Shown: positions 2 through 37,037, counted from the first letter of the stretch. The stretch is DNA of 64,000 bases from Pseudomonadota bacterium (GCA_013112535.1 JABFGI010000008.1:1-64000); one strand, 5' to 3'. The notes: generated by a model from the letters alone, not told the origin. Numbers and translations: made by a program.

Positions 2-1138
2 GTAGCGACCTACACCACGACCGACGGCAGTGGCACCGACGACACCTCGACCCTAACGATTACCGTCACGCCGGTGGACGATGCGCCAGTGGCTAATGAT
101 GATGTGATGAATACATCGCAAGATACGCCAGTGAGTTTAGATGTAACAGCGAATGACACGGATCCGGATACAGGGGATACGTTAACGGTAACGCAAGTTA
201 ATGGTGGTGCGATCACGGCGGGTGGTGCATCGGTTGCAGTTGCAAACGGCACCGTCAGCCTGGCTGTTGACGGCAAGACCCTGACGTTTAACCCGACAGG
301 CGGTTATACCGGTCCAGTCGCATTTGATTACACGGTGAGTGATGGCGCATTAACAGACACGGCTAATATCACGGGAACTGTAAGTACCACGGCGGGAAGT
401 ACTGGAATAGGATCTGATGACGATTTTGTTTATGATGAAGTGACTAATGCTGACAAAATTCCTGAAGTGGGTGGTAGTAGAGGAGGTATCGGTTATAACG
501 ATACTCTAGCTAAATCCGGTGCTGTGCTGGACTTGGTTGAAAGTGTTAATAAAGACATTGAAGATAATGATTATGATGAGGCTAAGCTTGCCGGAGGCGA
601 TGGGCTTTGGGATGTCGCAGGTGTTAAAGGTTTTGCGGTTAGTTTTTCATTAACAGAATTGAGTTCTGGTTCTGAAGCTGATTTAAGTTTATTTCCTCTA
701 CGTATTGGAGCGCCTGAAGCGGAAGCTCAAGATCAATTAATTGTTAAATCAATATTACGTGACAGAACTTTATTTCTTGAAGTTGATTACACTATAAATA
801 GTGATCCAAATTTATTAGCAACTCGAATTTCGGTTATGCAGGTTAATGGTAATCCTCTACCAGAATGGTTACGAGTAGATGATAGAGGAAGACTGGTGAG
901 TGGCGAACCACCTGTTGGAACCGAGAATATTGAGTTGAGAATAGAAATAAAATTAAGTAATGATACTACGATAGTTCGCTATGTTGATGTTAATGTAAAT
1001 AGCGGTGAAATTGCCTCACTAGAGCAATTTAGTACTGAAGTTATTGCTGGTGCAAGTTTATTTGAGAATCAGATAGAAAAAGAAGCGATTAAATTTGAAA
1101 ATGCCTCAATTGATATAGAAAAATCATTTATTAATTAA
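2..1138 (+). CDS. 3' end of a giant cadherin/VCBS-type repeat adhesin (partial)
   Basis: The reading frame is open from base 2, so the gene begins upstream and only about 378 C-terminal residues are visible. The first ~130 residues are Thr/Asp-rich tandem-domain sequence of the VCBS/cadherin-like type (motifs such as VDDAPVANDD, 'TANDTDPDTGD', 'FDYTVSDGALTDTANIT'), typical of very large surface or biofilm adhesins. Residues ~130-250 are an acidic linker, followed by a second Ig-like module ending in 'NGNPLPEWLRVDDRGRLVSG'. I see no GGxGxD RTX nonapeptides in the visible part. The first ~400 bases are clearly more GC-rich than the rest, so repeats and C-terminal cap have different base composition. 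The export-type genes immediately downstream on the same strand suggest that this is their cargo; that link is inferred from position. Function: likely adhesion. Substrate unknown. Confidence 0.8.
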   Translation, partial: VATYTTTDGSGTDDTSTLTITVTPVDDAPVANDDVMNTSQDTPVSLDVTANDTDPDTGDTLTVTQVNGGAITAGGASVAVANGTVSLAVDGKTLTFNPTGGYTGPVAFDYTVSDGALTDTANITGTVSTTAGSTGIGSDDDFVYDEVTNADKIPEVGGSRGGIGYNDTLAKSGAVLDLVESVNKDIEDNDYDEAKLAGGDGLWDVAGVKGFAVSFSLTELSSGSEADLSLFPLRIGAPEAEAQDQLIVKSILRDRTLFLEVDYTINSDPNLLATRISVMQVNGNPLPEWLRVDDRGRLVSGEPPVGTENIELRIEIKLSNDTTIVRYVDVNVNSGEIASLEQFSTEVIAGASLFENQIEKEAIKFENASIDIEKSFIN

Positions 1139-1275: not shown

Positions 1276-2778
1276 ATGAATTACCGACTCCTTACAATAG
1301 CTTTTATAAGCCTTCTTATGTCTGGCTGTTCTTTAGTACCTGTTTCGTTTACACAAGAAGAATTGAAAGAACAAGCAAAGAATGATCGATCTACAGTTAC
1401 GCAAAATCAGGAAGCAATTGATGGGCCCGTAACATTATATGAAGCAATAGCACGAGCACTTAAATATAATCTGGATTTTCATTTAGAGTTTTCAGAAAAG
1501 ATTCTGGCAGAAACGAGTTTTGATTTATCTAAATACGAATTGTTACCGCAGTTAGTTGCCAAGACGGGTTATAACAGCCGAGATAAATTTAGTGGGTCAT
1601 CGAGCCGTTCATTATTGACTGGAACCCAATCATTACAATCATCGACTTCATCTGATCGAGATATTTTTACATCGGACTTAAGTTTAAGTTGGAACGTGCT
1701 TGATTTTGGATTGTCCTACATTCGCGCTAAACAATCAGGTGATAAAGTTCTTATTGCCGAAGAAGAAAAAAGAAAAGTTGTCAACAGGATTGTTCAGGAT
1801 GTGCGAACAGCTTATTGGCGTGCAGTCAGTAATGATAGGTTGATAGAAAGAATTGAAAAGTTACTCATTCGTGTATCCAAGGCGATTGAAGAATCCAAAA
1901 AAATTGAAGTAAACCGTTTAGATCGTCCTTTAACAGCATTGACCTATCAAAGAGAGCTAATAGGGATTAAACGTGAGCTTGAGGAATTACAACGAGACTT
2001 GTCTTTGGCAAAAATTCAACTGGCTGCTTTGATGAATCTACGCCCAGGCGAAGAGTATGAGTTGGTTATTCCTGATAGAACAGAGGTAGTGAATAAAGTT
2101 GATATATCTCCAGATATGATGGAACAATTGGCTCTGGAGAACAGACCTGAGATAAGAACAGTTTCTTATGAAGAACGCATAAATAGACAAGAAGCGAAAG
2201 CAGCTATACTTAGTTTAATGCCAGGTTTGGATCTTAATTTTGGTAAAAGTTATAGCACGAACTCATTTTTGTTTCATAACAACTGGTTAAGTTATGGTGC
2301 ACAAATAAGTTGGAATTTATTAAATATTTTTAAATTACCTTCGACTAACAAAAATATTGAAGCTAAAGCGAAAGTACTGGAAGCAAGACGTTTGGCCTTA
2401 ACCATGGCAATCATGACACAGGTGCATGTCAGTATGGCTCAATACCGACATTCACAGCGAGAATATAATACGGCGGCAGATTATTTTTTAACGCAACAAA
2501 AAATTCTTGAACAGTTAGAGTCCGGTGTCAGTGCAAACACGGTTACGGAACAATCATTAATCAGGGAGCAAATGAATATGATGGTTGCTGAAATTAAATA
2601 TGATATAGCATATTCAGATGTTGAAAATGCTTACGCCAGTATATTTGCCTCACTTGGAATAGATCCTTTTCCTATTGATACAGATACAAGCAGTGTAAAA
2701 TCATTAACGAGTTCTATAATGAAGTATTTTGATGGTTTATCATTACACGAACAATTATTTTCAATGAAAATTGAATAA
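1276..2778 (+). CDS. TolC-family outer-membrane efflux lipoprotein
   Basis: An outer-membrane channel of the TolC/OEP family, 500 residues, near the usual size for this group. The N-terminus is a lipoprotein signal with lipobox LMSGC (lipidated Cys18), then two OEP repeats: long helices such as 'YEAIARALKYNLDFHLEFSEK' region and beta-strand segments such as 'SDLSLSWNVLDFGLSY' and 'YGAQISWNLLNIFKLP', which is the classic paired 'W-N-(V/L)-L' hallmark. It would provide the outer-membrane exit duct for the adaptor proteins encoded immediately downstream (21-base gap). No ABC or RND pump is encoded nearby. The assignment to the family is strong; the cargo is inferred to be the upstream adhesin. 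Confidence 0.9.
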   Translation: MNYRLLTIAFISLLMSGCSLVPVSFTQEELKEQAKNDRSTVTQNQEAIDGPVTLYEAIARALKYNLDFHLEFSEKILAETSFDLSKYELLPQLVAKTGYNSRDKFSGSSSRSLLTGTQSLQSSTSSDRDIFTSDLSLSWNVLDFGLSYIRAKQSGDKVLIAEEEKRKVVNRIVQDVRTAYWRAVSNDRLIERIEKLLIRVSKAIEESKKIEVNRLDRPLTALTYQRELIGIKRELEELQRDLSLAKIQLAALMNLRPGEEYELVIPDRTEVVNKVDISPDMMEQLALENRPEIRTVSYEERINRQEAKAAILSLMPGLDLNFGKSYSTNSFLFHNNWLSYGAQISWNLLNIFKLPSTNKNIEAKAKVLEARRLALTMAIMTQVHVSMAQYRHSQREYNTAADYFLTQQKILEQLESGVSANTVTEQSLIREQMNMMVAEIKYDIAYSDVENAYASIFASLGIDPFPIDTDTSSVKSLTSSIMKYFDGLSLHEQLFSMKIE

Positions 2779-2799
2779 ATTAAAAAGAGGGTTGAGTAG

Positions 2800-3570
2800 A
2801 TGAAAGTAAAAAAAATATTTACCTTTATATTAACCCTTTGTTCTTTTCTTGTTGTCTTTGGTGCTTATGCAGCTGATGATGACTTGTTTTCCAATGGTAT
2901 TGTTGCGGACAATGTACGTGGTTTAATTAAACCCGTAGAGAAAGCAATTATCTCCAGCGAAATAGCGGGCAAAATTGATTCTATTCCTTTTAAGTCAGGT
3001 GATGCGTTTAAAAAAGGTGATGTGTTAGTTGCATTTGATTGTTCTTTTTATCGTGCTGATCTTGCTTCTGCTGAAGCGGCTTATAAATCTAAACAAAATA
3101 TTTATGAAAACAATAAGCAGTTACTGGCTTTGAATGCAATTAGTGATATAGATGTTTCTATTTCTAAAGCGGAAGTAGATATGGCGAGAGCTGAACGTAC
3201 AATGCGTGCAATACGTGTTAATCAATGCAAGATTAAAGCACCTTATAGTGGCAGAGTTATTGAGGTTGCTATCAATGAATTTGAAACTGTTCCCGCTGAT
3301 AAAGAAATTCTTTCCATACTTAATGATAGTCAATTAGAAATTGAATTGATTGTGCCTTCAAATTGGTTGAATTGGTTAACTGTAGGTGAATCATTTTCTT
3401 TTTTGATTGATGAAACAGGAAAAACACTTGAAGCTAAAGTGAGCAAGACCGGTGCTGTTGTTGATCCAGTCAGCCAGACGATAAAATTGGTTGGAAAATT
3501 TGAAAGTGAGTTGGACGATGTGCTCTCTGGTATGAGTGGTACAGCTCAATTTAAACAAAGTAATAACTAA
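2800..3570 (+). CDS. periplasmic HlyD/RND-type adaptor protein
   Basis: A 256-residue membrane-fusion-protein-like adaptor. Residues 1-24 are a cleavable Sec signal peptide ending in AYA. The mature part has a barrel-sandwich (lipoyl-like) domain split around a helical hairpin: 'IISSEIAGKIDSIPFKSGD' before it and 'CKIKAPYSGRVIEVAINE' after it, then a beta-barrel region. It has no transmembrane anchor, unlike classical HlyD, so it would be periplasmic. RBS GAGGG lies upstream of the ATG. It overlaps the next gene by one base, indicating translational coupling. Family assignment is clear; partner proteins are inferred from the operon. Confidence 0.88.
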   Translation: MKVKKIFTFILTLCSFLVVFGAYAADDDLFSNGIVADNVRGLIKPVEKAIISSEIAGKIDSIPFKSGDAFKKGDVLVAFDCSFYRADLASAEAAYKSKQNIYENNKQLLALNAISDIDVSISKAEVDMARAERTMRAIRVNQCKIKAPYSGRVIEVAINEFETVPADKEILSILNDSQLEIELIVPSNWLNWLTVGESFSFLIDETGKTLEAKVSKTGAVVDPVSQTIKLVGKFESELDDVLSGMSGTAQFKQSNN

Positions 3571-4970
3571 TGATGACTGATAATAATCAACAAACGCCTC
3601 AAGCTTCTGTAGCTAACCCTGCTACACCACAAGTTCCTGATATTACAGCTGTATCAAAATTGCTGCAATTGGAGTCTATGGCACGAGCTGCAAGCTCTGC
3701 GGAAGCACTACAATTTATGATCGTTAATGAAACAAGACGATTGGTTCCTTATAGGCAGGCATATTTGTTTTTATCAGCTCACCCTATTAAACGCGATTGT
3801 AAACTGGTTGCAGCATCGAGTATTGCTATTGTAGAAAAAAATGCACCATTTGCTACATGGTTAGAAAAACTTCTGGAGAAAGTATTTACCAGCGAAACTA
3901 TTTCGACACAAAGGTTACTAGATGTCGCAAGCTGCCCTGAAGAATTAAAGGAAGGCTGGAATGAATTCTCTTTACCATTCGTTTTATGGACACCTTTAAA
4001 AATGCCTGATGGCACATTCATTGGCGGATTGTGGACGACAAGAGAAGTTCCCTGGCAGGAAAATGAATTACCATTATTGAAACGTCTTGGTGAAACATAT
4101 GGGCATGCTTATGTTGCCGTTACGAGTCGAAAAGATCTTTATCACCGCCCTAAAACAGTCACTGTTGCTGTTTGGGTTATTATTGTTTTCTTATTACTGG
4201 TTTTTGTTAAGCCGATTAAATTATCTGCTTTGGCACCAGCAGAAGTTATAGCCAAAGAACCTGTTGTTGTAAGTTCACCAATGGATGGTGTTATTTCAGA
4301 AATAGAATTTTCACCGAATACACATGTTTCTAAAGGAGAGACATTATTCGTATTTGAAGATACGAATTTACGAAATGAATATAATGTGGCAGAGAAAACC
4401 TTAGCTGTTGCAGAAGCGGAATATCGCAAAGCAGCTCAAGGTTCATTTGGTGATACAAAAAGTAAAGCTCAAGTTTCGTTGTTGCAAGCTCAAACAGAAT
4501 TACATAAAAGTAAATTAAAGTTTGCTCGTGAATTGCTTGATAAAATTACCGTGAAAGCTGAAAAGTCCGGGCTATTAATTTACTCTGACAAATCAGATTG
4601 GATAGGAAAACCGGTTCAGGTCGGTGAACGGGTTATGGAGATTGCCGATACTGATAAAATTCAGTTAAAAGTTAATTTAGCAATTAATGATGCAATTGTT
4701 TTAAGGGAAGGTGCTAAAGTAGAAGTTTTTCTCGATGCTAATCCGTTGCATGCAATTGAAGCTACAGTCAATAGCACAAGTTATTTGGCTGAAAAATATA
4801 GTCAGGATACACTTTCTTATCGGGTTTACGCAGAATTCGATGATATTGAAAACGAGAAGTTAAGAATTGGTTTACAAGGTACTGCAAAGATGTACGGTGA
4901 ACGCGTCTCTGTTTTTTTCTATTTGTTTAGACGCCCTATTTCTTATGTGCGTCAATTATTGGGTATATGA
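3570..4970 (+). CDS. GAF-domain inner-membrane HlyD-family adaptor
   Basis: 466 residues with an unusual architecture. Residues ~30-185 form a predicted cytoplasmic GAF-type sensor domain ('AEALQFMIVNETRRLVPYRQ' start; 'FVLWTPLKMPDGTFIGGLW' core). One transmembrane helix follows at ~196-213 (VAVWVIIVFLLLVFV), then a periplasmic HlyD part: 'SSPMDGVISEIEFSPNTHVS', a helical hairpin, 'KITVKAEKSGLLIYSD', and a C-terminal beta-barrel. Classical adaptors have only a short cytoplasmic tail, so the GAF domain suggests that export is gated by a small ligand or by a cytoplasmic partner; the ligand is unknown. The gene overlaps the next one by four bases (ATGA). It is probably part of a tripartite complex with the TolC-like and M50/HlyD proteins. 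Confidence 0.85.
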   Translation: MMTDNNQQTPQASVANPATPQVPDITAVSKLLQLESMARAASSAEALQFMIVNETRRLVPYRQAYLFLSAHPIKRDCKLVAASSIAIVEKNAPFATWLEKLLEKVFTSETISTQRLLDVASCPEELKEGWNEFSLPFVLWTPLKMPDGTFIGGLWTTREVPWQENELPLLKRLGETYGHAYVAVTSRKDLYHRPKTVTVAVWVIIVFLLLVFVKPIKLSALAPAEVIAKEPVVVSSPMDGVISEIEFSPNTHVSKGETLFVFEDTNLRNEYNVAEKTLAVAEAEYRKAAQGSFGDTKSKAQVSLLQAQTELHKSKLKFARELLDKITVKAEKSGLLIYSDKSDWIGKPVQVGERVMEIADTDKIQLKVNLAINDAIVLREGAKVEVFLDANPLHAIEATVNSTSYLAEKYSQDTLSYRVYAEFDDIENEKLRIGLQGTAKMYGERVSVFFYLFRRPISYVRQLLGI

Positions 4971-7096
4971 GCGAAGCCGCAGCAGATGATTTTGCACTAC
5001 CTGTTTTACGCAACGATCTTCAATTAATTGAAGGCCCCGTTGCGCTTGATGGATCGCCAAGCTGGATTATTGTTGATCCTATCAGGAATAAATATTTTTC
5101 TATTGGCTGGATGGCTTTCCAACTTTTATCACGTTGGACCGTTGGTAAGGCCAGCTTATTAATTGAACGAATTAAAAATGAGTCAGCACTAGACATTCAA
5201 AAAGCTGATATTGAAAGTTTATTAACTTTCCTCTACGCGAATAGTTTGACTCTTGATCCTGCTAGCGGTTCAAGTAGTGACTATCTTCAGCAATATGAAG
5301 CCAGTAAACCTGGTTTATTAATGTGGCTGGTACACAATTATTTGTTTATCAAAATACCTTTAATTAAGCCGACCAAATTCTTAAAAAGAACGCTGATTTA
5401 TATTGAACCGCTGTTTTCCACAACAGCAATGAGTTTTATTGTACTCATTGGTCTAATAGGTCTTTATATTGTTGGAAGGCAGTGGGATACCTTCACTTCG
5501 ACATTTTTGTATTTTTTTAATTTGCAAGGTTTAGTATTTTATTTTTTCTCCCTTGTTTTTATAAAAATATTTCATGAGTTGGGACATGCGTATACGGCAG
5601 TCAGGTATGGTTGTAAAGTACCGACCATGGGTGTAGCGTTTCTGGTGATGTTTCCTATTTTGTATACGGATACTTCAGATACATGGCGTGTTAAGTCTGC
5701 AAGAGAACGGGTACATGTAGGTGCGGCAGGAATGGTTGTTGAGTTGTATATTGCCTGTATTGCAACATTTTGTTGGGGCTTTTTACCTGATGGTGTTTTG
5801 AAAAGCGCTGCTTTTATTCTGGCAACAACAAGTTGGATTATGTCTCTTGCAATCAATCTGAACTGCCTGATGAGATTTGATGGTTATTACATCCTTTCTG
5901 ATTTACTGGGTATTCAAAATCTGCAGAAAAGATCATTTGAAATAGGAAAATGGCGCTTGACTGAATTTCTTTTCGGTTTAGGTTTAAGACCACCAGAAGC
6001 ATTGCCGTCTCCCATGATAAAAAAACTTTATATTTATGCCGGCTGTGTTGCCGTTTATCGTTTTTTCCTTTTTATTGGTATTGCTGTTTTAGTTTATTAC
6101 ATGTTTTTTAAAGTATTAGGAATAATTTTATTTCTAATTGAAATTCTTTGGTTTATCGTTTTACCTGCATTTAAATTAATAATAGGTTGGTGGGAAATGA
6201 GGGGTATGATTATTAAGAAGCCACGTTTCTATATAACTGCAATATTCTTTATGTTTATTATTGCTGTGTTTATATATCCCTGGAACTCATCTATCGTTAT
6301 TCCCGCTGTATATGAGACTAAAGAAAAAACAACACTTTATGTAACATCACCCGGCTTCATTGAAAATAACTTAATGGAAAGAGGTTTGAAAGTAGAGAAA
6401 GGCGATATTCTGATGAAGTTGAATTCGCCAGAGCTGGAGTATGAAATTAAAACAACGTTGATGGAAATCGATATTTTAAAGCTACAAGCAAAAAGAATTG
6501 CTGCAAGTGCAGATGAATTATCTAATATTCAGGTTCTAGTTCAACAGTTGCAGGAAAGCCGTTCTAAATTAGATGGACTGTATGAAAAACAGAATCAATT
6601 TATTATTAAATCGCCAATAGATGGTGTTATTTTTGATATGGAAGAGTCCTTGCATGAAGGTCGCTGGATAAACCCGACGCTTGCTCTCGCTACGATTGTT
6701 CAACCCGAATATCCCTATATTATAGGATTAGCTCCAGAAACAGATTTATCAAGAATAAAAAAACAAGTCAGCGCAAAGTTCATTCCGGATAATCCACAAC
6801 TAGACTCGATTTGGTCTTATGTTGAAGATGTAGAGTTTGCCAATCTGAAAACTCTTGATTTACCTGTTCTTGCATCAGTATATGGTGGAAAGATTCCTGC
6901 CCAATTTGATAATAATGGTGAATTGATACCTGATAAATCAATATATCGAGTTCGACTAAAAGTGAGTCCTGTTGAAAAAGTTAATGTTGAAAATGAAATG
7001 CGTGGCGTCGTGCATATACAAGGAGAAGCTGAGAGTTTTATTAAACGGATGTATAAAATTGTGGTTTCTGTTTTTATTCGAGAATCAGGTTTCTAG
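4967..7096 (+). CDS. PqqD-like / M50 metallopeptidase / HlyD membrane protein
   Basis: 709 residues in three parts. Residues ~20-105 resemble a PqqD-type winged-helix peptide-binding domain ('SWIIVDPIRNKYFSIGWMAF'). Residues ~130-430 are a multi-pass membrane site-2 protease (peptidase M50) with HELGH at 203-207 and the second metal-ligand region RFDGYY at 303-308. Residues ~440-700 are a periplasmic HlyD/lipoyl-like adaptor ('SPGFIENNLMERGLKVEKGD', 'FIIKSPIDGVIFDMEES'). Proteins of this type are annotated in databases as 'putative peptide zinc metalloprotease'; none that I know has a settled role in giant-adhesin export. Both metal-binding motifs look intact, so proteolysis is plausible. The locus has no ATPase, so the energy source is an open question. 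It ends the operon. Confidence 0.88.
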   Translation: MSEAAADDFALPVLRNDLQLIEGPVALDGSPSWIIVDPIRNKYFSIGWMAFQLLSRWTVGKASLLIERIKNESALDIQKADIESLLTFLYANSLTLDPASGSSSDYLQQYEASKPGLLMWLVHNYLFIKIPLIKPTKFLKRTLIYIEPLFSTTAMSFIVLIGLIGLYIVGRQWDTFTSTFLYFFNLQGLVFYFFSLVFIKIFHELGHAYTAVRYGCKVPTMGVAFLVMFPILYTDTSDTWRVKSARERVHVGAAGMVVELYIACIATFCWGFLPDGVLKSAAFILATTSWIMSLAINLNCLMRFDGYYILSDLLGIQNLQKRSFEIGKWRLTEFLFGLGLRPPEALPSPMIKKLYIYAGCVAVYRFFLFIGIAVLVYYMFFKVLGIILFLIEILWFIVLPAFKLIIGWWEMRGMIIKKPRFYITAIFFMFIIAVFIYPWNSSIVIPAVYETKEKTTLYVTSPGFIENNLMERGLKVEKGDILMKLNSPELEYEIKTTLMEIDILKLQAKRIAASADELSNIQVLVQQLQESRSKLDGLYEKQNQFIIKSPIDGVIFDMEESLHEGRWINPTLALATIVQPEYPYIIGLAPETDLSRIKKQVSAKFIPDNPQLDSIWSYVEDVEFANLKTLDLPVLASVYGGKIPAQFDNNGELIPDKSIYRVRLKVSPVEKVNVENEMRGVVHIQGEAESFIKRMYKIVVSVFIRESGF

Positions 7097-7227
7097 TTTA
7101 CTAATTCATTTTATGTTGAAAATTTGACGTCCTTTACATATTCCATTTCATTTATGTGGACTGGTTCACATCAATTTATTATAATTAATTATATACTTCA
7201 AAAATATATTATAACTAATTGATTATT

Positions 7228-7572
7228 ATGAAAAATAAACATTTTTGTTTCCTTTTTTTTATAGCTGTTATTTTTTCTGTTTCAGCCTGTAATTCTGTAA
7301 CAGTTAAGAAAAGCGTGGCTAAAGTGGCTCAGTCTCCTGAAACCTTATACGTTTATGAAGACGGGAAGATGAAGCTTGATTCCAGGTATGTAGATAGTAA
7401 AGATGTTGTTATCTATCCAGATGGTAGGGGTGGTGAAAAGGCAGCAATAAAAGTCCACTTTCCATTGCATTCAGATTTTTATCGTGACTCAATTATTGTA
7501 GTACGAGTTGTAAATAAATTTGATGAATCAGTGACTCAAAATGAGTCTGAAAATGTAGATAACATAAATTGA
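7228..7572 (+). CDS. small lipoprotein of unknown function
   Basis: 114 residues from the ATG at 7228; an in-frame TTG three codons earlier is possible but less likely. The N-terminus MKNKHFCFLFFIAVIFSVSAC is a lipoprotein signal peptide with Cys21 as the lipidation site. The mature chain is short, Lys- and Val-rich with no motif that I recognise. It lies 130 bases after the M50/HlyD gene on the same strand and could be an accessory of that export locus, but the A/T-rich gap may contain its own promoter. No RBS is obvious. Confidence 0.65.
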   Translation: MKNKHFCFLFFIAVIFSVSACNSVTVKKSVAKVAQSPETLYVYEDGKMKLDSRYVDSKDVVIYPDGRGGEKAAIKVHFPLHSDFYRDSIIVVRVVNKFDESVTQNESENVDNIN

Positions 7573-35228: not shown

Positions 35229-37037
35229 TTAATGTGATTGTCTTACCCCATAAAGCTTGGAGTAGAGTCCATCCTGAGATAGTAATTCACCATGTGTGCC
35301 TTGTTCGCCTATTGTTCCTGCTTCAAAGACATAGACATGGTTTGCCTGTTTAATGGCGCTTAATCTGTGTGCAACAATTATAGTCGTTTTATCATTTAAG
35401 AAATCAGTAAGTGCTGTATGTAAGTGATATTCTGTTTCGGCATCTAATGCCGATGTCGCTTCGTCGAGTATTACCACATTAGGTTCACTTAGTACCATAC
35501 GTGCTATAGCTAAACGTTGGCGTTGTCCGCCCGAGAGTCTGATACCTTGTCTACCGACTATAGTATCGAGTTTGTTGGGTAATTGTTCGATGGTTTCCTT
35601 GAGTTGAGCAATCTCAAGAGCGTGCCATAAGTCTTTATCTTCCAGTTCGCGTCCCAGGGTTAAATTAATTCGAACTGTATCGTTAAACAATGCCGGATGT
35701 TGTAACACAGTCGCAACATGCTCGCGGACAACATCAAGACCTATCTTTGTTACCGGCACATCATCATAAAATATATTGCCGCTTTTAGAAGGGTATAAAC
35801 CTATCAACACTTGTACCAGAGTCGATTTCCCGCCACCACTTGCACCTACCAGTGCCACTTTTTCGCCAGGTTCAATTTCAAGGTTAATGCCATCTAGTAC
35901 ATCCGGGCCATCACCATAGGCAAAATGCAGATCAGAAATAGTGATACCCACGGTATTTTTATTTTCAAATGGATTAATGATATGTGGATAGTCTGGTTCC
36001 TGCTTCAACTTTACTAATTCATTAATACGTCCCAACGCCGCTTTCGCACTATAAAAAGCGTATTGAATATTCAGGATTTCCTGAACGGGCGCCATCATGA
36101 ACCAGAGATAGCCAAACACAGCAAACATTTGACCAATACTCAAACCTGAATAAATAACCATAACCATGGCAACCGCTCTAAAGATATCAAAGCCGAATAA
36201 AAACACGACAAAACTTAATCGTCCTGCTGTATCACTTTTCCATGCGAATGCAATACCATGATCCTTAACTTGTCCGGCGTGTTCAATGATGCGTTGTAAA
36301 TAATGCTTTTCTCTATTACTGGCGCGAATTTGATGAATAGAGTCCAGTGTTTCAACAAGCGATTGCTGGAAAACTGCAAACGCCGAGTTTTCGTTTTTCT
36401 TTAACTCTTTAACGCGTTTTCCTAATACAGTTGTGAAGTAAATAACAATAGGGTTGGCAAACAGGATTAACGTGGCAATTTGCCAATGCATGATAAGTAA
36501 TATGATTGCTACGCCAATAACTGTTAATACAGCAATAAGCAACTTGCTGACAGTTGTTCCTACAAAATTATCAACCGTTGTAAGGTCTGTAACAAAGTAA
36601 GACGCAACCGTTCCGCTTCCCAGTGTTTCATATTCCGACATCGATACACTGCTTAAACGTTGTAGTAATCTACGACGAATAAGAAAAATCACATCTTTCG
36701 CAATAATTGTAAATTGTCTTGTCTGAAGTACGTTAAGAAATAATGAAGCAAGGCGTAAGAACAAGGTAAGAATTAGCAGTGAAACAATATAGAGCACGGG
36801 GCTATGCCAGGACGATGGCGTAATACTGTTTATTGTATTAACGACAATAGCCGGTTTGTTTAACAATACTTCATCAACTAATAAAGGCATTAACAACGGC
36901 ACAGGTACACTTGCCAGTGTTGCCACAACAGCAATAATATTAGCCATTATCAATTGACGTTTATGTTGTTTGGCAACGCTTAAAATATATTGCCAGTTAT
37001 ATTCTTGTGGCTCTTCTTTACTCAGTGTCATGTCCAT
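35229..37037 (-). CDS. ABC exporter, fused membrane and ATPase domains
   Basis: 602 residues, a half-transporter (MsbA/MDR type) that dimerises in the inner membrane. Six-helix membrane domain ~25-320, then an ATPase domain with Walker A GASGGGKST, signature LSGGQRQRL, Walker B 'NVVILDEATSALD' and the H-loop 'IIVAHRLS'. All catalytic motifs intact. The substrate cannot be told from sequence; lipid or drug export is usual. It begins 27 bases after srkA and may be cotranscribed. It is far from the HlyD locus (28 kb) so I do not link it to that system. Confidence 0.93.
   Translation of the reverse strand: MDMTLSKEEPQEYNWQYILSVAKQHKRQLIMANIIAVVATLASVPVPLLMPLLVDEVLLNKPAIVVNTINSITPSSWHSPVLYIVSLLILTLFLRLASLFLNVLQTRQFTIIAKDVIFLIRRRLLQRLSSVSMSEYETLGSGTVASYFVTDLTTVDNFVGTTVSKLLIAVLTVIGVAIILLIMHWQIATLILFANPIVIYFTTVLGKRVKELKKNENSAFAVFQQSLVETLDSIHQIRASNREKHYLQRIIEHAGQVKDHGIAFAWKSDTAGRLSFVVFLFGFDIFRAVAMVMVIYSGLSIGQMFAVFGYLWFMMAPVQEILNIQYAFYSAKAALGRINELVKLKQEPDYPHIINPFENKNTVGITISDLHFAYGDGPDVLDGINLEIEPGEKVALVGASGGGKSTLVQVLIGLYPSKSGNIFYDDVPVTKIGLDVVREHVATVLQHPALFNDTVRINLTLGRELEDKDLWHALEIAQLKETIEQLPNKLDTIVGRQGIRLSGGQRQRLAIARMVLSEPNVVILDEATSALDAETEYHLHTALTDFLNDKTTIIVAHRLSAIKQANHVYVFEAGTIGEQGTHGELLSQDGLYSKLYGVRQSH

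Follow-up and report, generated by a model that had tools for sequence, protein, structure and literature searches.

A SecA-less M50-HlyD cassette coupled to LExR-leader giant adhesins: a predicted export and surface-display system without an ABC exporter

Kamneva et al. (2015; PMC4452313) described a gene module that encodes a SecA_DEAD protein, an M50 peptidase, a GAF-HlyD protein and an HlyD protein, for instance META1p2399-2402 of Methylobacterium extorquens. They noted that an ATP-binding cassette (ABC) protein was missing and proposed a secretion role, with SecA_DEAD as the motor and the M50 protein as a possible pore, and gave neither a substrate nor a signal (PMC4452313). Here we analyze a related locus in a stretch of 64,000 nucleotides from a Pseudomonadota bacterium (GCA_013112535.1, JABFGI010000008.1:1-64000; hereafter the window), which encodes homologous, alignable M50-HlyD, GAF-HlyD (the GAF domain via relatives) and HlyD proteins. 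Unlike the module of 2015, the window form has no SecA_DEAD and has its own TolC beside an adhesin. We identify a leader signal and a substrate class for this computationally described but uncharacterised kind of machine, and we consider it probable that the adhesin and the four genes beside it make up a self-contained system that exports giant repeat adhesins and displays them on the surface.

The type I secretion systems (T1SS) of giant adhesins (LapA, SiiE, RTX adhesins) share with the window the HlyD adaptor, the TolC channel and a giant substrate with Ig/cadherin repeats; the window differs in having no ABC exporter, an N-terminal leader and a peptidase fused to an adaptor. The locus would work like a type I duct, and yet falls outside the definition of a T1SS, having no ABC protein, and outside that of the SecA_DEAD module, having no SecA_DEAD. 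The DDxP giants have been assigned to ordinary T1SS (PMC7730722). Systems for ribosomally synthesized and post-translationally modified peptides (RiPPs), namely TbiB1, CteB and SuiB, as well as EpeP and the daptide protease NF041824, resemble the window in the fold of the RiPP recognition element (RRE) and in the M50 core, but their substrates are small modified peptides and they have no adaptor or TolC fusion. For LEPR-XLL (NCBIfam NF012209, 'LEPR-8K') there is a name but no assigned function. Few bacterial proteins are as large as the giant LEPR-XLL and DUF4347 proteins, and we found no published account of how these exit the cell. Our search of the open-licence literature, in which earlier work may be missed, turned up the gene set only in PMC4452313, and no earlier paper that links the leader to the machine or treats the SecA-less form as a system. 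A possible tie to polymorphic-toxin trafficking was dropped, as no M50/TolC text was found in PMC3482391.

The first gene of the window cassette (1276..2778, +) encodes a TolC-family outer-membrane channel (OEP 8.3e-37) that is a lipoprotein with the lipobox LMSGC. The second (2800..3570, +) encodes a soluble periplasmic adaptor of the HlyD/RND-MFP type with a signal peptide (TIGR01730 6e-34, over its cut-off). The lipobox of the former and the cleavable signal peptide of the latter were judged by eye. The third gene (3570..4970, +) encodes an inner-membrane adaptor with a cytoplasmic GAF-like domain, one transmembrane helix and a periplasmic HlyD domain (HlyD_3 1.4e-13), and the fourth (4967..7096, +) encodes M50-HlyD, a protein of 709 amino acids (aa). 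Pfam HlyD_3 matched three cassette proteins (1e-15, 1e-13 and 2e-5). Directly upstream, an open reading frame (ORF; 2..1138, +) carries Big_9/cadherin-like repeats (Big_9 2e-17, Cadherin_4 4e-14) and a conserved C-terminal domain; it is the C-terminal part of an adhesin, the proposed substrate. An earlier note, made from the sequence alone, had described this gene order and the 3' end of an adhesin ahead of it. Its coordinates proved exact and the families matched (OEP, HlyD_3, Peptidase_M50). The note had seen no ABC or RND pump at the locus, and none lies inside the cassette (the search for RND pumps was confined to the cassette). The GAF domain that it assigned to the third gene gave no Pfam match in the window protein itself; the assignment gains support from relatives, of which 7 out of 12 reach Pfam GAF (best 2.8e-12).

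M50-HlyD combines three parts. In the AlphaFold2 model (pLDDT 82), a beta3-helix3 N-terminal domain is followed by membrane helices with HELGH and FDGYY and by a C-terminal adaptor with an alpha-hairpin. The zinc-binding motif HELGH (residues 203-207; 5573..5587, +) and FDGYY (residues 304-308; 5876..5890, +), which includes the third metal ligand Asp305, lie where the earlier note had placed them. H203, E204, H207 and D305 are invariant across 19 relatives, and HExxH is kept in 132 of 137 distinct relatives. The window protein thus has the M50 hallmark, HExxH and a distal Asp ligand within transmembrane helices; its catalytic residues are intact and peptidase activity is predicted. The Pfam Peptidase_M50 match (2e-6) is barely above the cut-off, and the M50 core matches the daptide HExxH protease model NF041824 at 6e-40, under the cut-off of that model. 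The periplasmic adaptor (residues ~439-690; 6281..7036, +) has the fold of MacA, EmrA and MexA (Foldseek: 3fpp 2e-14; EmrA and MexA ~1e-12).

Because a Foldseek search with the whole model returned the adaptor half alone, we folded the N-terminal domain (residues ~10-95; 4994..5251, +) separately (AlphaFold2, pLDDT 79). It has a three-strand, three-helix winged fold, and its top six PDB matches in Foldseek are all RREs (probability 0.84-0.99, E 0.05-0.14). The best are TbiB1 with its leader (5v1u/5v1v, probability 0.98-0.99) and CteB (5why/5wgg), with SuiB lower. The earlier note had called this domain PqqD-like, which Pfam does not report for the window protein; 5 of 19 relatives do reach Pfam PqqD (best 1.6e-6). 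A leader-binding role is proposed for the domain.

The machine is tightly coupled to a class of substrates. We examined a sample of 397 genomes in which M50-HlyD was called at E<1e-50. M50-HlyD occurs in 84 genomes and LEPR-XLL (NF012209) in 47, with both present in 46 (Fisher P~1e-35; this and the following P values are descriptive). The only LEPR-XLL genome without M50-HlyD (G278) has a 64-aa ORF. LEPR-XLL or DUF4347 is found in 81 of the 84 machine genomes, and two of the remaining three (G407 and G296) have an LExR giant beside the machine. For DUF4347 proteins, the LExR leader is present in 68 of 69 from machine-bearing genomes or loci versus 0 of 14 from machine-less ones (P=6e-15; the machine-less L190/G102 is counted among the 14). 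Likewise, the motif occurs in 33 of 45 cassette-adjacent giants with a closed start versus 0 of 451 control ORFs. The pattern recurs across phyla and through losses, and the pairing of machine and substrate is strongly supported. Adjacency to giants and a leader nearly confined to machine genomes favor the earlier note's suggestion that a peptidase-based unit without an ABC protein may export or process the adhesin.

The leader follows the pattern LExRxxFD[AG]A, where the residue after LE is P, S, Q, E, R, T, K or A. A fixed LEPR motif was dropped as too strict, LExR being the real pattern, and DUF4347 was dropped as a lone substrate marker because some DUF4347 proteins occur without a machine and then have no leader. 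LExR leaders are not like Sec signals: a hydrophobicity of 2.0 is reached by 2 of 60 leaders versus 42 of 47 TolC N-termini. Several DUF4347 proteins from machine-less genomes appear to have Sec-like signal peptides (judged by eye). At the other end of the giants, a strict FSEQL C-terminal motif was rejected as too narrow (14 of 119). A looser tail, F..Q[LVIMA] within the last 60 aa, is found in 53 of 73 giants of the window's machine type (type A, below) versus 50 of 451 controls. As this tail is enriched but degenerate, with a helical tail, we claim no C-terminal signal; F..QL with the helical tail is a possible second signal.

The cassettes fall into two types. Type A, the window form, has the gene order TolC, HlyD, GAF-HlyD, M50-HlyD. 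Type B is the module that Kamneva et al. described (PMC4452313): its order is GAF-HlyD, M50-HlyD, SecA_DEAD, HlyD, and a small DUF3467 protein often accompanies these. All 22 SecA_DEAD-positive genomes of the 397 carry M50-HlyD, and SecA_DEAD is absent from the type A cassettes among 80 named loci and in complete genomes. The window genome has no secondary SecA_DEAD: its sole match is a 901-aa open frame. Leader and machine subtypes go together, xFD with the SecA-less form and LLSA with the form that has SecA_DEAD. At the position that follows the hydrophobic pair, type A leaders have D (52 of 52) and type B leaders mostly S (9 of 11; P=2e-9). One genome (G008) has only a remnant of the type A locus and retains a D-type leader on a small DUF4347 protein. 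The NF012209 cut-off is reached by type B giants and some type A giants, and the window-type leader is a variant under it. The coupling offers the LEPR-XLL domain a proposed function and the 2015 module a substrate, and both proposals are testable. In type B loci, the DUF3467 protein sits between the giant and GAF-HlyD (L043:12886-13203, L229, L231 and others). One type B giant has 15,406 aa (L052/L057/L058 and L043, G008), and other LEPR-XLL ORFs in the sample reach 19,427 aa.

In the window genome itself the adhesin gene is incomplete: the window starts at the end of a contig (C8), where the assembly truncates the gene. The genome encodes two DUF4347 proteins, both of which start with a charged stretch followed by LEPRIMFDAAG and have no Sec-like hydrophobic core. 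The first (2,546+ aa) reaches the end of contig C12. Because an exact 81-bp repeat is common to the end of C12 and the start of the window, this ORF is likely the 5' part of the window adhesin. In a relative (G050), a 3,128-aa gene with the same leader lies directly ahead of TolC, HlyD, GAF-HlyD and M50-HlyD. The second DUF4347 protein (1,040 aa; G000:C5, L060:7336-10458, -) is complete, lies far from the cassette, has the LExR leader and the same C-terminal domain, and is a likely substrate in trans. It falls short of the NF012209 cut-off (11.9 versus 17 bits), and there is no match in its own genome at E<=0.01, although a relative (G024) does exceed the cut-off. The 1,040-aa gene adjoins genes for an ABC-2 type transporter, and its product is a convenient mini-substrate. 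The C-terminal domain of the window ORF recurs beside the cassette in L028-L034, L036, L037 and L041.

M50-HlyD proteins are widespread. At least 584 relatives emerged when 84,980 species were scanned, and 80 of these were kept; their taxa include Thiotrichaceae, Nitrospira, Azospirillum, Rhizobium, Pelagibacteraceae, Marinomonas, Pseudomonas and others. Within the window's family, 18 of 53 genomes have M50-HlyD, and the 13 with DUF4347 are a subset of these. The earlier note had called for a neighborhood survey, and it turned out as predicted: a giant ORF adjoins the cassette in most, indeed nearly all, loci with enough flanking sequence (window family, 80 named loci and complete genomes). 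SAR11 bacteria (Pelagibacteraceae L134, L139, L146 and L156) have the cassette and a 2,300-aa LExR giant despite their small genomes, with TolC divergent upstream.

We propose the following mechanism. The N-terminal leader LExRxxFD[AG]A would mark the adhesin in place of a Sec signal peptide. The cytoplasmic RRE/PqqD-like domain of M50-HlyD would bind the leader and deliver the adhesin to M50-HlyD and GAF-HlyD, which together would serve as the inner-membrane unit; there the M50 site may cleave the leader. From this unit, a duct built of the periplasmic adaptor domains, soluble HlyD and the TolC lipoprotein would lead the adhesin to the surface, so that an ABC exporter would not be needed. Candidate energy sources are the membrane potential, the housekeeping SecA or Ca-driven folding outside. 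If so, the SecA-less form in SAR11, Nitrospira, Rhizobium and E. coli plasmids would show protein export by HlyD-TolC without an ABC pump, and the locus points to an uncharacterised route that moves very large proteins to the cell surface. More tentatively, and with some doubt on our part, the locus may represent a distinct Gram-negative secretion class, with an RRE-M50-adaptor fusion as the inner-membrane translocation unit, a cleavable LExR leader and no dedicated ATPase.

Several points weigh against this proposal. We know of no M50 proteins that act as protein-conducting channels. On the other side stands a precedent, the intramembrane M50 protein EpeP, for which a dual role in the cleavage and export of an epipeptide is proposed (PMC10885120). 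For the RRE, the match is structural, with a weak best E-value (0.05), though the top matches are all RREs, and both the extent of the leader and its cleavage site are putative. As the genomes are related and not independent, the P values overstate independence. The support is computational throughout. Finally, the type A cassette encodes no motor and the window genome has one canonical SecA, which leaves the energy step without an explanation.

This last point bears on an unlikely but serious alternative, a two-step route in which the housekeeping SecA/SecYEG reads the LExR leader as an odd signal and carries the adhesin over the inner membrane, and the cassette only removes the leader (M50) and conducts the adhesin out of the periplasm to the surface via HlyD and TolC. 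The sister module has its own SecA_DEAD (PMC4452313), and Sec-type motors are thus not foreign to the family; in addition, canonical SecA is kept in type A genomes and one of the cassette adaptors is soluble and periplasmic. Against this, the leaders have no hydrophobic core and the RRE domain is predicted to be cytoplasmic. Because several DUF4347 proteins from machine-less genomes appear to carry ordinary Sec signals, the LExR leader seems to replace Sec signals rather than mimic them.

A T1SS whose ABC exporter is encoded elsewhere, with the M50 protein as an accessory processing enzyme, would fit the T1SS-like TolC and HlyD components, but we regard it as hardly likely. No ABC protein of the LssB or PrtD type exceeds its cut-off anywhere in the window genome. 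Of its three full-length exporter-type ABC proteins, one is MsbA (over the cut-off), one is PglK-like and one MsbA-like; for most type A carriers of the family, too, the matches are only partial and MsbA-like. A constant dedicated exporter, which the earlier note had named as a refuting case, was not seen: the LssB cut-off is passed in 4 of 53 family genomes, two without M50-HlyD and two (G008 and G030) with type B. LssB-like ABC proteins that are full-length but under the cut-off occur in three type A genomes (G023, G027 and G050), where an ABC partner is possible. The signal is also N-terminal, and the five genes move without an ABC gene on plasmids. The MsbA-like exporter of the window (35229-37037, -) is full-length, under the MsbA cut-off and additional to the true MsbA on contig C5.

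Plasmid copies occur in Escherichia coli. E. coli G5 has an IncHI1B plasmid that encodes a giant of 3,668 aa, in which ALESRQLFDGAAL stands at residue 18, followed by TolC, an adaptor, HlyD and M50-HlyD. The five-gene block, without an ABC gene, is present in 24 of 5,426 E. coli genomes as near-identical, mostly plasmid-borne copies; such mobility is what a self-contained system would show. One complete five-gene cassette (L284:695-18073, NZ_CP060066.1) has lac and fec genes nearby on its E. coli IncHI1B plasmid, and the cassette is likewise found on Citrobacter and Hafnia plasmids.

The M50 and GAF proteins could also form a regulatory protease for adhesin anchoring or release, with export by another route. 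M50 proteases are frequent in regulated proteolysis, GAF domains sense ligands and adhesins of the LapA type are under proteolytic control. We find this very improbable, given that adaptor domains are part of both the M50 and the GAF protein, that a TolC of their own accompanies them, and that the cassette conserves neither an anti-sigma factor nor another exporter. We give next to no credence to a small-molecule efflux operon that adjoins the adhesin by chance: database annotation labels parts of the cassette as efflux RND adaptors, but it has no pump protein, and both the adjacency to giant adhesins and the leader coupling hold across phyla.

Two further features are of note. In one genome (G041, L049:7589-8596) the LEPR-DUF4347 start of an adhesin runs in frame into the C-terminal part of M50-HlyD; a single deletion of the whole system between them would account for this, or else an assembly error. 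Such a fusion would be expected if adhesin, TolC, HlyD, GAF-HlyD and M50-HlyD were contiguous in this order. In the window, a small predicted lipoprotein is encoded after the M50 gene (7219..7572, +). It has weak similarity to CopK, was not found in more distant cassettes in the same comparison and is possibly outside the export system; it is conserved in the window's genus and close relatives (L028-L034, L049).

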